Assembly: GCA_016840685.1 (NCBI GenBank) | Contig: JAEORX010000016.1 | Location: 1-33,322, forward strand | Length of the DNA: 33,322 nt | Reading direction: 5' to 3' | Source: Candidatus Thorarchaeota archaeon | GTDB taxonomy: Archaea; Asgardarchaeota; Thorarchaeia; Thorarchaeales; Thorarchaeaceae | Shown here: positions 1,796 through 6,868 of the stretch, piece by piece | Layout: each line of letters begins with the position of its first letter | Numbering within the stretch: the stretch's first letter is position 1 | Notes under the pieces: generated by a model | Databases searched by the model: none | Told to the model about the DNA's origin: nothing | What the model saw: the letters and a program-made list of their open reading frames with translations, nothing else | Position numbers and translations under genes: made by a program

Positions 1796-2587
1796 GTGCG
1801 GATTAGAATAGCGAAGGGACACCATCCAATGCATGAGCGACTTCACTCGGAACTATTTGCATCAATTGCCACACTTGACCAGCTGAAAAAGCTGTATGAT
1901 CTTGGTGCAGTGGATATTCGATCTTATCAGAGAGAGTCGCAGGCATTGCTTCAGGATGTTCGATCGCAGATTGAGAATATGAAACGTATAGGAGTAGACA
2001 TCGGCACATTCGTGTCAAATGAACGGATTGTCGAAGCTTTTCCAGAGGCAGCCAACTTGCTCAGACTTGGGAGCTACGCCCCCAGGCGTTCCCTACAAGG
2101 AATGACATTGGATCAATTCTATGACTACATTGGGCTAGCGATTCTTGATGTCGCAACTGAGCACTCATCAAAGGGGCTCATGGGCCTGGCGGAACTGATT
2201 GTTGAGGTAGTACGTCGTCTTCCTGAGATCGAATCCGTGACATATAATGATGTGATTGAGGCTGTGAACCGAGTCGCGGAAAATGGGCTCATCCCAGGAA
2301 TTCGTACTCTACGAGGGGGCGTGAAGGTTGTCGAGTTACGGCCACTCGAACTACGACGAGATCAGGCCGATGTGATCAATCTCGCAGCCAGTAAGGGTTA
2401 TGTTTCTGTGGAAGAGGTGATTATGCAACTGAAATGGTCAGAGGATCATGCACGGCAGGTCTTATCCAGCCTTGCTGAAGCAGGGATGGCTGTCGCAGAT
2501 ATCCGCTTTTCAACAGGTGGTCGGTACTATTTCCCAGGACTCCGACCTCGAGAATCCTCTGATCCAAGGACTGCCGGTGCATATTGA
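1796..2587 (+). CDS. vps22: ESCRT-II subunit Vps22/SNF8-like (EAP30 domain)
   Basis: 263 residues resembling the EAP30 family of ESCRT-II, the complex that in eukaryotes links ESCRT-I to ESCRT-III on membranes. Residues about 20-65 look like a helical hairpin or coiled coil. Two winged helices follow, about 105-185 and 188-250. The second is very close in pattern to human SNF8: GYVSVEEVIMQLKW, then HARQVLSSLAEAGMA and a final YYFPGL. The chosen start is GTG 1796, without a clear ribosome site; ATG 1829 (residue 12) is a possible alternative. It faces vps25 convergently with a 2-base gap. The gene lies in a block with vps4 and ESCRT-III, which supports the call. Vps36 is the paralogous alternative, but no GLUE domain is present here. 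Confidence 0.88.
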   Translation: MRIRIAKGHHPMHERLHSELFASIATLDQLKKLYDLGAVDIRSYQRESQALLQDVRSQIENMKRIGVDIGTFVSNERIVEAFPEAANLLRLGSYAPRRSLQGMTLDQFYDYIGLAILDVATEHSSKGLMGLAELIVEVVRRLPEIESVTYNDVIEAVNRVAENGLIPGIRTLRGGVKVVELRPLELRRDQADVINLAASKGYVSVEEVIMQLKWSEDHARQVLSSLAEAGMAVADIRFSTGGRYYFPGLRPRESSDPRTAGAY

Positions 2588-2589
2588 TC

Positions 2590-3321
2590 TCATGTTACAA
2601 TTATAATAGCTCCTTTCTTCTCATCAACCCAGCTTGCAAGTCCTTTCTTCACCATGAGAGCCAGCACAATATGAATGTCCTTCTCTGGAAGGCTAGCAAA
2701 GTCCTGTTTCACTTCTTGAATGACTATTGACTTCACATCAAGTCTTAACTTCCCGGTCTTGAGCGCCCATTGATAGAGAATGTCTGCCCAGTCCTCAAGA
2801 GGTCGCCAATAGACTCTCAGCTGTCGCTCTTTCTTGTCTATCCATTCAGCAACTTCCTTATCCACCAGTATTTGTGTTATAATCTTGAATGAGTCCACTT
2901 TGTTCCTAAAATCCTTGAATGGTGGTTCACTGATGAATGTCGCAAGAGAGAGAACATGTGCCTTTTTGGCCTCCGACCATTCCAACACATAATCTGCCCA
3001 CTCTTCAGCCCACATCTCTTTGTCTTCTTCTCGAGATGGTATACCATACATCCATTCAGTTTCCTCGATATTTCCCCAACTAGGTGATACAAAATCCTGT
3101 TCTGCTGTTGTTGGTATGGATTCATGAACAGAGTTGGCTTCTTCTGCAGATTCTTCAGTTGATGTAGATTGAATGGTTTCGATGACAACCTCTGGACTAG
3201 AAATTTCCTCCTCTGTAATTGTTTCAGTGGAAGGTGGAGATATCTCAACCTGTTTCTCCTCTGAAGGCTTGGATGATTCCTTTGTCTTTGCCTTCTCTCT
3301 CCCTCTCTCCCTTACACCCAC
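2590..3321 (-). CDS. vps25: ESCRT-II subunit Vps25-like with long acidic N-terminal tail
   Basis: 243 residues. The C-terminal 140 residues read as the two winged helices of Vps25, the ESCRT-II subunit that in eukaryotes recruits the first ESCRT-III protein. Landmarks shared with human VPS25 are EWIDKKE followed by a Trp-rich linker (YWRPLEDWADILYQWALKTG) between the two winged helices, and a second-domain helix LPEKDIHIVLALMVKKG. Residues about 1-80 are Glu/Ser/Thr/Pro-rich and predicted disordered; eukaryotic Vps25 (about 176 residues) lacks this. The GTG start at 3321 lies 3 bases past the vps4 stop, with a GGAGG inside the vps4 end, so the two are co-transcribed. The tail could bind a partner or be a spacer; its function is unknown. 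Confidence 0.88.
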   Translation of the reverse strand: MGVRERGREKAKTKESSKPSEEKQVEISPPSTETITEEEISSPEVVIETIQSTSTEESAEEANSVHESIPTTAEQDFVSPSWGNIEETEWMYGIPSREEDKEMWAEEWADYVLEWSEAKKAHVLSLATFISEPPFKDFRNKVDSFKIITQILVDKEVAEWIDKKERQLRVYWRPLEDWADILYQWALKTGKLRLDVKSIVIQEVKQDFASLPEKDIHIVLALMVKKGLASWVDEKKGAIIIVT

Positions 3322-3324
3322 TCT

Positions 3325-4539
3325 CTAGGAACCCTCCGCCCAGTCAATGTATCTCTTCACATCCTCTGGAGGAGTTGCAGGACGTATGTTCTCTATGGCT
3401 TGCAAGAAATCTTCCCTCGATACAGGTCGGATGTCCAGAATCTCCTGTTCATCATCCATCCTACCTGTTCTTTGTAGGTCTCTAATTGGTTCCATCGCTG
3501 CCTCACGACATACTACACTGATGTCTCTTCCACTATAGCCCTCAGTGAGATCTGCGAGTTCTTCGTACTCAACTGCAGGAGAGACCTCAACATCATCCAT
3601 ATGAATCTCGAATATCCTTGCACGAGCTTCTCTTCCAGGAAGTGGGACATGTATTTTCTTCTCAAATCTAGAACGTAGCGCAAAATCAAGTTCCCAAGGA
3701 AGATTTGTGGCTCCAATGAGCGTCAGGCGATCCTCCTCGTTACTTGCAAGTCCTTGCAGTTCCGTGAGGAGTTGAGTCTTCAGACGTCTTTCACCACCGA
3801 CATCATCACCCGACCTAGAAACTCCAATAGAGTCTAATTCATCAATAAAGATGATTGCTGGTTGGTTTTTTCGTGCAAGCTCGAAGAGGTTCATAACCAA
3901 TCGCTCAGATTCACCAAGCCACTTACTGACTATGTTCGCTGCTGACACATTGAAGAATGTTGCATTCACCTCTGATGCGACAGCCTTAGCGATCAAGGTC
4001 TTTCCACACCCTGCAGGTCCATAGAACAATATTCCGCGCCATGGCTGTCTTGCCTTTCCTTTGAAGAGCTCTGGGTGTTTCATAGGAGCTAGGATTGCAT
4101 CATCAATCGCTTGTTTTGCATCTCCAAGACCTGCTACCTCTGACATTTTGATTTTCGGGCGCTCTGTAATTATCGTGTCAGATATCATCTCTCTAAGACG
4201 TTTTTCTTCGTCATCAAGTTCTGCATCTGCTTTCGAGGTCTCTTGAATCGGAACTGGTTCGGGAGTCACTTCAATTCTTGGTGGTGCAACAAGTCCATCC
4301 ACTGGCCCATGAGCCTTCTTTTTGATTCCAGATAGGTATCTCACTCTGTCAACGCACTCCTGTGCCCTGTCAAAATAGTGCTTCTTGACTGAAGGTAGTG
4401 CCGCAGAGTTTGAAAGCTTGATGAGAATCTTGCTAGCCTTAAGGTATTCTTGGCAAGCATCCTTCTTCATTCCTCTCTGGTCTAGTTCAACTGCTCTAGC
4501 AAGCAACGCCTTTAGTCCTTGATCTACCCTGTCTGCCAT
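3325..4539 (-). CDS. vps4: Vps4-family AAA ATPase with N-terminal MIT domain
   Basis: 404 residues. This is the ATPase that disassembles ESCRT-III polymers (CdvC in Sulfolobus, Vps4 in eukaryotes). A three-helix MIT domain spans about 5-75, and a Pro-rich linker reaches about 110. The AAA module follows, with Walker A GPAGCGKT (174-181), pore loop SKWLGE (205-210), Walker B IIFIDE (229-234), sensor 1 Asn279 in GATNLPW, arginine fingers Arg289 and Arg291, and GYSGRDI (334-340) near sensor 2. The C-terminal helix (PEDVKRYIDWAEGS) resembles that of Vps4. It is first in a two-gene operon with vps25 and divergent from the ESCRT-III gene across a 131-base promoter region. All catalytic residues are present, so the enzyme should be active. 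Confidence 0.95.
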   Translation of the reverse strand: MADRVDQGLKALLARAVELDQRGMKKDACQEYLKASKILIKLSNSAALPSVKKHYFDRAQECVDRVRYLSGIKKKAHGPVDGLVAPPRIEVTPEPVPIQETSKADAELDDEEKRLREMISDTIITERPKIKMSEVAGLGDAKQAIDDAILAPMKHPELFKGKARQPWRGILFYGPAGCGKTLIAKAVASEVNATFFNVSAANIVSKWLGESERLVMNLFELARKNQPAIIFIDELDSIGVSRSGDDVGGERRLKTQLLTELQGLASNEEDRLTLIGATNLPWELDFALRSRFEKKIHVPLPGREARARIFEIHMDDVEVSPAVEYEELADLTEGYSGRDISVVCREAAMEPIRDLQRTGRMDDEQEILDIRPVSREDFLQAIENIRPATPPEDVKRYIDWAEGS

Positions 4540-4670: not shown

Positions 4671-5288
4671 GTGAGATTCTTGGGTTCAATTAGAAAGGCA
4701 TTCTCTTGGGGTAGAAAGAAACCAGACATAGGTGAGATTTCTAGTCGCCTTAGGATTTTGTCAAAACAACTAGCAAGACAGAGAAACAAGTTGGAGAAGG
4801 AAGAGCATGATGCAAAGGCACGTGCAGTTCGAGCAAGAAAGGGTGGTCAAACAGAGGCGTATCGTACATATGCCACTGAGATGGTTCGCTTTCGTAGATA
4901 TGCTCTTTCAGTCGATAAGTCGCGGTTACAGATACTAAAAATCCTTGCTCACTTGAATCGTGCTCAGACATCTGCAAAGACATCAATAGCTCTTCAGGAA
5001 GTCGCTAAGATTCTCGGAATGCTTGGGGACAGTACTGATGCATCCAAGGTTGTTGCCAATGTGGATGAGATTGCACGTCGTCTTGAGGAGTTTGAGATTG
5101 AAGCCAGTATCTCTGATGAAGCCCTCGATACAACGATGGAAGTGTCTTCTGAGGACCTATCCTCTGCCTTTCAAGAAATCGATGCTGAAGCTGGATTGGC
5201 TGAAGCTCCCTCAATAGCAAGGCCTGCTAGTGAGGCCGAATCACTCGAAGAAGACATCAAAGCCCTGGAACGAGAACTGGGCGTCTAG
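4671..5288 (+). CDS. ESCRT-III (Snf7/CHMP/CdvB-type) filament subunit
   Basis: 205 residues, the length of eukaryotic CHMP proteins. The polymer-forming subunit acts on the inner face of membranes in scission or division. It starts with a basic amphipathic stretch (MRFLGSIRKAFSWGRKK), as in membrane-binding Snf7 proteins. Long, highly charged helices follow (about 20-80 and 82-115), matching the ESCRT-III core hairpin. The tail from about 150 is acidic. The extreme C terminus (SLEEDIKALERELGV) has the spacing of an MIT-interacting helix (MIM1-like), which would bind the MIT domain of the neighbouring Vps4. The GTG start at 4671 follows a TATA-like box by about 34 bases. Only one ESCRT-III gene is present in the window; Asgard genomes usually have a second. 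Confidence 0.88.
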   Translation: MRFLGSIRKAFSWGRKKPDIGEISSRLRILSKQLARQRNKLEKEEHDAKARAVRARKGGQTEAYRTYATEMVRFRRYALSVDKSRLQILKILAHLNRAQTSAKTSIALQEVAKILGMLGDSTDASKVVANVDEIARRLEEFEIEASISDEALDTTMEVSSEDLSSAFQEIDAEAGLAEAPSIARPASEAESLEEDIKALERELGV

Positions 5289-5290
5289 CA

Positions 5291-6868
5291 TCACCAGAGT
5301 TTATCACGCGTTTCACTTCTGACACGTTCCATCTCGCGTCTGTTATGATAAGAGTCTCTCATCAGGTCACGGTATCTTCTGATAAAGTCTTCAGTAACAA
5401 GTTGCCCACTACGAAGCATGTGCACTGTGTCTCGTATTGCATTTTCGATTGAAGCGGCGTCTCTCTGTAAGGAGTGCATTCTGGGGCTTGTTTCGTAAGA
5501 AGGATATGTACTTCTCTTCTGATCATATTGCCCAATTACTCGGTCGAGTTCATCACGGAAGGATTCAGGTTTCTGATAATAACCATCATAAGGATATCGA
5601 CGAACGGGAGGTGTTCTCCAGTCACCAATATGAGGTCTTGAGTTAGGTGGCAGTACTGGCATGTCTTCAGCATATTGTGAATGATCGTTAGTGGATAAAA
5701 GCGAATAGACCATCCCCTCAATCTTCAGACGCACATCGCTTGTACCAATGTCAGTCTGTTCTATCTTCCTGACTCTCTGCATATCTGTTTGAATGTACTT
5801 GTCAAATTTTCGGGCTATCTCTATATAATCAGGCAAGACCTTCTTTGTCTGCTCTGAGCAAGTTGCCTTGATCTCTCCCTGCTTCAACTTCAAGACCAGT
5901 CGTTTCCTCAACCTCCCATCTTCTTCAATAGACTTCAGGTAAATCAATGGGAAGTCAAAGATGGTTTCCATTTTCTTGCGAACTCTTCCAGTTTCAGCCA
6001 CAAAGAGGAGTCTCTTGTTGGTGATGAACAGCGTTCCAAGAGCTTTATCATTTTTGAGAAAGTCACTTCCAGCGATCTTGATATCTGGAAGGGCACAGAC
6101 GGGTAGCTCTCCCACTGTTAGTTGTCCATGCTCATAAAATGAGGCAAACTGACCCTTGTAATAATCAAGCCCCTCAAGTTGTCTCCTGACCTCTTTGAGT
6201 GTATTTCTTAGTGGTTCAAGGGACTCATCGACATTTTGTTTGTAGTAGATCCCCATCTCTGTTATCCTATTTGTTATCCCCTCTACAAACGGGAACTGCG
6301 ACGATTTCCATTGAGTGTAGTCAATGAAGTCCTTGGTCTCTGCGGCCATTCTCTTAGCTATGATTTCTGCCTGACTTGCAATCCGATTCTTAATTGCTGG
6401 GAGTTCATTCTGAATACCTTCAATCTTCTCCTCAATCCATCTATAATGAAGGAAATTTGCCATTCTCAGTGACACAAGCAGTCTCTTTGCACTGGCAAGT
6501 TTGTTAGTAAATTCTCTCATTTTCGTATGACCGTATTGAATGGTCATGATTGCATGTCGCATGTCTAGTGCAAGCGACCTCCTTCTGTCTTCTAGAAGTA
6601 CGACTCTGGATGAGTGGCATCTTGAACATATGTCTATAGTCTTTCTTCCTTTGCTCAGGTTCGTGGACTCGCATTGGGGACACTCTAGGAACTTCTCTCC
6701 TGGTGCTGGTGAACCAAGCGTATGATGGCAGTCACTACAGATAATGTACTCACTTGTTCGTGTTTCAAGACACTCCGAGCACAATGCTGCTCCACAATCC
6801 TCGCACATGTGTGTGGCTCTGTTTGACTGACATGATCTGCATTGTCCAATTGAGGAATCTTCTGTCAT
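5291..6868 (-). CDS. Zinc-finger / coiled-coil / GRAM-PH-like protein with C-terminal steadiness-box-like domain (ESCRT-I-like candidate)
   Basis: 525 residues, not a family I can name as a whole. In order: a B-box-like zinc region with four CxxC pairs (Cys10/13, 22/25, 30/33, 44/47); a second zinc ribbon (Cys63/66, 81/84); a long helical or coiled-coil region (about 95-240); a GRAM/bPH-like beta region (about 250-355, with GTLFITNKRLLFV); a Pro/Tyr-rich linker (400-465); and a C-terminal helical domain (470-525). That last domain resembles the steadiness box of TSG101/Vps23, with AIRDTVHML and VTEDFIRRYRDLMRD aligning in pattern. The steadiness box is the part of ESCRT-I that binds Vps28. 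GGAGGT lies 6 bases before the ATG. It converges on the ESCRT-III gene with 2 bases between. An ESCRT-I or membrane-adaptor role is inference. Confidence 0.7.
   Translation of the reverse strand: MTEDSSIGQCRSCQSNRATHMCEDCGAALCSECLETRTSEYIICSDCHHTLGSPAPGEKFLECPQCESTNLSKGRKTIDICSRCHSSRVVLLEDRRRSLALDMRHAIMTIQYGHTKMREFTNKLASAKRLLVSLRMANFLHYRWIEEKIEGIQNELPAIKNRIASQAEIIAKRMAAETKDFIDYTQWKSSQFPFVEGITNRITEMGIYYKQNVDESLEPLRNTLKEVRRQLEGLDYYKGQFASFYEHGQLTVGELPVCALPDIKIAGSDFLKNDKALGTLFITNKRLLFVAETGRVRKKMETIFDFPLIYLKSIEEDGRLRKRLVLKLKQGEIKATCSEQTKKVLPDYIEIARKFDKYIQTDMQRVRKIEQTDIGTSDVRLKIEGMVYSLLSTNDHSQYAEDMPVLPPNSRPHIGDWRTPPVRRYPYDGYYQKPESFRDELDRVIGQYDQKRSTYPSYETSPRMHSLQRDAASIENAIRDTVHMLRSGQLVTEDFIRRYRDLMRDSYHNRREMERVRSETRDKLW

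Follow-up and report, generated by a model that had tools for sequence, protein, structure and literature searches.

The window, a 33-kb contig of a Thorarchaeota metagenome-assembled genome (MAG), contains an open reading frame at positions 5291–6868 on the minus strand that starts with ATG, has no internal stops and encodes a protein of 525 amino acids with a zinc finger, helices, a PH-like domain and a steadiness box. It lies beside a set of ESCRT genes. Tail-to-tail with it, across a gap of 2 nt, is a gene for the ESCRT-III protein Snf7 (4671–5288, plus strand; Pfam Snf7, 2.7e-11). Beyond this are the Vps4 AAA ATPase with an MIT domain (3325–4539, minus strand; AAA 1.5e-39, Vps4_C 3.5e-5, MIT 7.8e-4), the ESCRT-II subunit Vps25 (2590–3321, minus strand; Pfam ESCRT-II, 5.2e-15) and the winged-helix protein Vps22, also of ESCRT-II (1796–2587, plus strand; EAP30, 9.1e-15), which has a Vps28-type N-terminus. 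The order AspS-Vps22-Vps25-Vps4-Snf7-[525-residue protein]-TldD-PmbA-ArgS is kept in the Thorarchaeota loci as far as the contigs reach. Of the Thorarchaeota loci, 16, including that of the window, have a contig long enough to reach Snf7, and in every one of them the two genes are tail-to-tail with gaps of 0–20 nt. Other Asgards show this pairing at 14 of 20 loci, 13 of these within 140 nt and one at 1.2 kb. There is one Snf7 gene in the cluster of the window; several of the other Asgard loci have two near the gene for the zinc/PH/steadiness-box protein.

Scanned as a single sequence against Pfam and NCBIfam, the 525-residue protein gives domain matches that are all below threshold, and for this reason family alignments were used as evidence. 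One comprises 14 Thorarchaeota sequences and the other 21 sequences from across the Asgards with identities of 19–60%; full-length identity to relatives from Thorarchaeota MAGs is 51–85%. Matches to Aca2_YdiL and DUF2408 were dismissed as chance helical matches. An earlier note, made from the sequence of the window, had proposed a B-box-like zinc finger, a coiled coil, a GRAM-like region and a steadiness-box-like end for this protein. All four were found at or near the residues it gave, and the order of zinc module, helices, PH/GRAM-like domain and steadiness box is supported.

The N-terminal zinc module has two parts, a putative eight-cysteine B-box-like cross-brace at residues 10–47 (6728–6841, minus strand) and a putative zinc ribbon, CX2C-X14-CX2C, at residues 63–84 (6617–6682, minus strand), the latter with four invariant cysteines and a weak HypA-like match. 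The cysteines from C10 to C47 have the spacing of a B-box, CX2C-X8-CX2C-X4-CX2C-X10-CX2C, and all 12 ligand cysteines, eight in the cross-brace and four in the ribbon, are invariant in the 21 relatives. These would suffice for three zinc ions in three zinc-binding units, as in the published family Znr_CC_PH_SB discussed below. The Pfam zf-B_box and ANCHR-B-box profiles match residues 5–39 of several members with E-values of 0.0036–0.018, and zf-B_box is matched by 7 of the 21 (best 0.0036), all below the cut-off. With respect to the B-box (PF00643), the spacing fits, though C-X2-C takes the place of H in the final pair of ligands and the matches are weak. Searched against the PDB, the zinc-region profile matches RNF4, TRIM2 and other RING/B-box chains.

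These PDB matches would be in keeping with a finger that recognises ubiquitin, one of the possibilities raised in the earlier note, or ubiquitinated cargo, and ubiquitin is found by profile search in 165 of 228 Asgard genomes. None of the 47 genomes of the Thorarchaeota family, however, has a match to ubiquitin, nor to the UEV domain, which is present in 53 of the 228 and is not found by Pfam in the 525-residue protein itself; these absences hold at profile sensitivity and for MAGs of varying completeness. Hatano et al (2022; PMC9192718) likewise conclude that Thorarchaeota are without it. As the fingers stay invariant in Thorarchaeota, where ubiquitin is undetected, we argue that their ligand is probably not ubiquitin, and recognition of ubiquitin here seems very unlikely. 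The ligand in Thorarchaeota is probably a different molecule, or a ubiquitin-like protein that has diverged beyond detection.

Three long helices, a possible stalk or helical bundle, follow at residues 92–247 (6128–6595, minus strand). In the AlphaFold2 model they form blocks at 92–136, 143–177 and 189–240 with pLDDT values of about 65–92. The coiled coil proposed earlier holds in so far as long helices connect the zinc module to the PH-like domain, but the model predicts a helical bundle rather than one coiled coil.

The PH/GRAM-like domain, at residues about 256–354 (5807–6103, minus strand), is best seen in relatives. While bPH_3 (bacterial PH, PF14470) matches the window protein with an E-value of 0.046, it matches two relatives at the same place above the cut-off (4.9e-6 and 5.9e-6) and 12 of the 21 family members in all. 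GRAM (PF02893) is matched by 7 of the 21, down to 4.2e-4, and by none of ten members scanned singly at a level above the cut-off. A profile of the PH region made from non-Thorarchaeota members gives the window protein 107 bits (residues 256–364), whereas the best of 2000 shuffles reaches 7.5. The region includes conserved basic stretches at residues 297–299 and 319–323. In the AlphaFold2 model, the region consists of strands followed by a C-terminal helix, in agreement with a PH fold without proving it. The full-length model has a pLDDT of 68, the PH region folded alone is poor with a pLDDT of 53, and a fold search of the full-length model against the PDB gave no match at E≤1e-3. DH-PH RhoGEF folds, in which helices precede a PH domain, appeared in that search with an rmsd of about 20 Å or more and were not interpreted. 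A PH superfold is likely for the middle region; the PH/GRAM-like module of the earlier note is supported, with GRAM in particular a candidate assignment. Residues 394–460 (5489–5689, minus strand) make up a linker that is poorly conserved in the Thorarchaeota alignment and modelled with low confidence, the pLDDT being below 50 over most of it.

To our knowledge, Asgard ESCRT-II is without the GLUE domain and NZF fingers of yeast Vps36, and it is conceivable that the 525-residue protein is a Vps36-like partner of ESCRT-II in which the PH-like domain and zinc fingers replace them. It resembles Vps36 in being an ESCRT subunit with a PH-fold module and zinc fingers, and the PH region does match the Vps36 GLUE domain, if weakly (Pfam Vps36_ESCRT-II in 3 of the 21 members, best 0.017; PDB 2cay, 0.42). 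The core of Vps36 in ESCRT-II is, however, formed by two winged-helix domains; the profile search finds none in the 525-residue protein, which has a steadiness box instead, and both bPH and GRAM outscore GLUE on the PH region. Even with no full-length Vps36 in Asgards according to PMC9192718, we regard a Vps36-like role as unlikely.

The C-terminal steadiness box, a predicted helical hairpin at residues 462–517 (5318–5485, minus strand), is recognised chiefly through relatives. Pfam Vps23_core is matched by 18 of the 21 members, with a best value of 3.1e-6 that is above the cut-off. Against the PDB, three of the four best matches of the family steadiness-box profile are yeast Vps23 sequences (best 1.7e-6) and the other is TSG101 (4e-4), with no Vps37 or Vps28 chain among the matches listed, and the family profile matches most Asgard Vps23 proteins at 1e-15 to 1e-10. 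The box of the window protein is divergent, its score of 10.0 bits with a non-Thorarchaeota profile lying barely above the 8.9 bits reached among 2000 shuffles, and searches with PF09454 and PF03997 gave no match in its own genome. Using hhalign, the Thorarchaeota box aligns to the boxes of the family with a probability of 94%, to those of Asgard Vps28 with 80% and to those of Asgard Vps23 with 19% (E 0.001); three helical segments of the protein, run as controls, do not exceed 6%. The non-Thorarchaeota family boxes align to Asgard Vps23 with 98.8% in a profile–profile comparison. Since the match of the window protein is weak and that of the family strong, calling it a steadiness box depends on the homology shared with the family, and it is at this level that the earlier claim of a steadiness-box-like end is confirmed. 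A Vps23_core match in one further genome (G187, locus L121) is to a 175-residue coiled coil for which there are matches to numerous other coiled-coil families as well.

An orthologue is present in 46 of the 47 genomes of the Thorarchaeota family. The Thorarchaeota profile finds matches in 153 of the 228 Asgard genomes and 43 of 62 genera, and the broad profile of the family in 221 of the 228, or about 167 by hand count at E≤1e-20. The figure of 221 overstates the true spread of the family, as the weak matches are the steadiness boxes of Vps23 and Vps28 proteins. The family reaches the Asgard families f3, f5, f6 and f8, of which f6 has UEV-Vps23-Vps28 fusions, and members from these lineages often show no recognisable box at the C-terminus. 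Members at loci L124–L129, from f6 and f8, keep the zinc fingers, the helices and the PH-like region; they terminate in a helical hairpin in which no steadiness box can be recognised.

The architecture, which the earlier note had taken to be undescribed, is already published. In their account of the ESCRT cluster, Makarova et al (2024; PMC10936438) describe the Asgard-specific cog.011556 as 'a likely ESCRT-I component' consisting of three zinc ribbons, a coiled coil, a PH domain 'expected to be membrane associated' and a steadiness box. It is called Znr_CC_PH_SB in a legend and Znr_PH_CC_SB in the text, and of these two orderings the 525-residue protein has the former, zinc-helices-PH-box. Assignment was made from the published description, which shows the same architecture and no difference in kind, apart from the first two zinc sites being given as two ribbons where we see one eight-cysteine cross-brace. 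Judged from its sequence, the 525-residue protein is very probably the Thorarchaeota member of this family, an ESCRT-I-type membrane adaptor specific to Asgards. The observation in the earlier note was thus real and its interpretation partly right, the idea of an Asgard-specific ESCRT-I-type adaptor being among the parts that are supported. A freestanding steadiness-box protein from the ESCRT neighbourhood of Loki- and Thorarchaeota, which yeast two-hybrid hints suggest may bind Vps28 (PMC9192718), is probably the product of the same gene; the sections of that paper that deal with it do not describe the zinc and PH parts.

The protein has a Vps23-type C-terminal steadiness box, a likeness to TSG101/Vps23 that holds at the family level, but it lacks a UEV domain and has zinc fingers and a PH-like domain. 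The earlier note had set these features against TSG101, which would have a UEV domain in their place. Outside Thorarchaeota, however, the family protein coexists with UEV-Vps23, and in many Asgards UEV-Vps23, Vps28 and the family protein are found in one genome. This coexistence argues for an additional steadiness-box subunit and not a UEV-less Vps23. Similarly, the steadiness-box headpiece is homologous to that of Vps28, while the C-terminal domain of Vps28 is missing and the box is at the C-terminus.

What is new, and modestly so, is a Vps28-Vps22 fusion and the ubiquitin-free context. A profile of Asgard Vps28 was built from ten sequences and used to search whole genomes. In the genome of the window it matches the N-terminal ~95 residues of Vps22 with an E-value of 1.8e-14. 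It matches the Vps22 gene in 44 of the 47 Thorarchaeota genomes, over Vps28 positions of about 6–106, and nothing else in these genomes better than 0.002. The reverse profile, of the Thorarchaeota Vps22 N-terminus, matches the free Vps28 proteins of other lineages at 3e-19 to 1e-8 and does not match the N-termini of their Vps22 proteins; from about residue 95 onwards the Thorarchaeota Vps22 matches ordinary Vps22. These reciprocal matches place a Vps28-type headpiece on Vps22, at residues 15–94 in the window (1838–2077, plus strand). On this profile evidence, Vps22 in Thorarchaeota carries the Vps28-type head as an N-terminal fusion, which sharpens the remark in PMC10936438, where Asgard Vps22 (cog.002769) is introduced, that it is fused to a steadiness box.

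In the headpiece of ESCRT-I, steadiness-box hairpins are paired. By analogy with ESCRT-I structure in general, the C-terminal hairpin of the 525-residue protein may dock onto the Vps28-type head of Vps22, and this would couple an ESCRT-I-like membrane contact directly to ESCRT-II. The PH-like domain would touch the membrane, the B-box-like finger would bind a ligand other than ubiquitin, and ESCRT-II, through Vps25, would nucleate the neighbouring Snf7/Vps4 machine. A Znr_CC_PH_SB adaptor tied to ESCRT-II through the Vps28-type head of Vps22 seems to us, from the sequences, a reasonably probable explanation of the whole, the docking of the steadiness box being its uncertain part.

Against the docking, the real partner could be a BAR/Vps28-like protein of Thorarchaeia. 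While Pfam VPS28 is matched in 148 of the 228 Asgard genomes, in the Thorarchaeota family there are only weak matches in two genomes (3e-4 and 6e-4; G214 and G215), below the cut-off, to long helical proteins of ~410 residues (L118:1033–2265, plus strand; L119:841–2070, minus strand). That at L118 also has a BAR match (1.5e-5, below the cut-off), and these proteins probably correspond to the BAR-Vps28 fusion that has been reported from Thorarchaeia (PMC10307638). With such a partner located elsewhere in the genome, the 525-residue protein would occupy the place of Vps37 or the second Vps23 copy as a third subunit of the headpiece. This would suit the co-occurrence of the family protein with UEV-Vps23 and Vps28, the lack of any Mod_r (Vps37) match above the cut-off in the 228 genomes and the Odinarchaeal Vps23, described in PMC9192718 as a dimer with one Vps28. 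We find it rather doubtful, as the low scores of the BAR-like proteins on VPS28 contrast with the Asgard Vps28 profile, which at E-values better than 0.002 picks out only the Vps22 N-terminus in Thorarchaeota.

If the hairpin does dock on Vps22, ESCRT-I and ESCRT-II may, as a tentative further suggestion, have collapsed in Thorarchaeota to a unit of two proteins that is independent of ubiquitin. In it, the headpiece of Vps28 would have been transferred to Vps22, the zinc/PH/steadiness-box protein would clip onto it, and membrane lipid together with a non-ubiquitin ligand would call ESCRT-III with no need for ubiquitinated cargo. Eukaryotic ESCRT reads ubiquitin and membrane at ESCRT-I. A lineage that keeps ESCRT-I, -II and -III without detectable ubiquitin or UEV reveals the portion of the pathway that can be uncoupled from ubiquitin. 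Reconstitution of a natural minimal complex, one adaptor with a Vps28-Vps22 fusion, would be easy and makes ESCRT recruitment without ubiquitin directly testable, although prior publication of the architecture limits the surprise.

In other Asgards, UEV-Vps23, Vps28 and Vps22 are encoded by separate genes in that order, and in lineages with UEV-Vps23 the assembly of the heterotrimer may differ. Between vps28 and vps22 there are in some cases small proteins of ~95 residues (L088:2087–2371, L080:2088–2369 and L074:2098–2391) whose matches in profile searches are confined to the Vps28 C-terminal domain, as likewise noted in the description of the cluster in PMC10936438.
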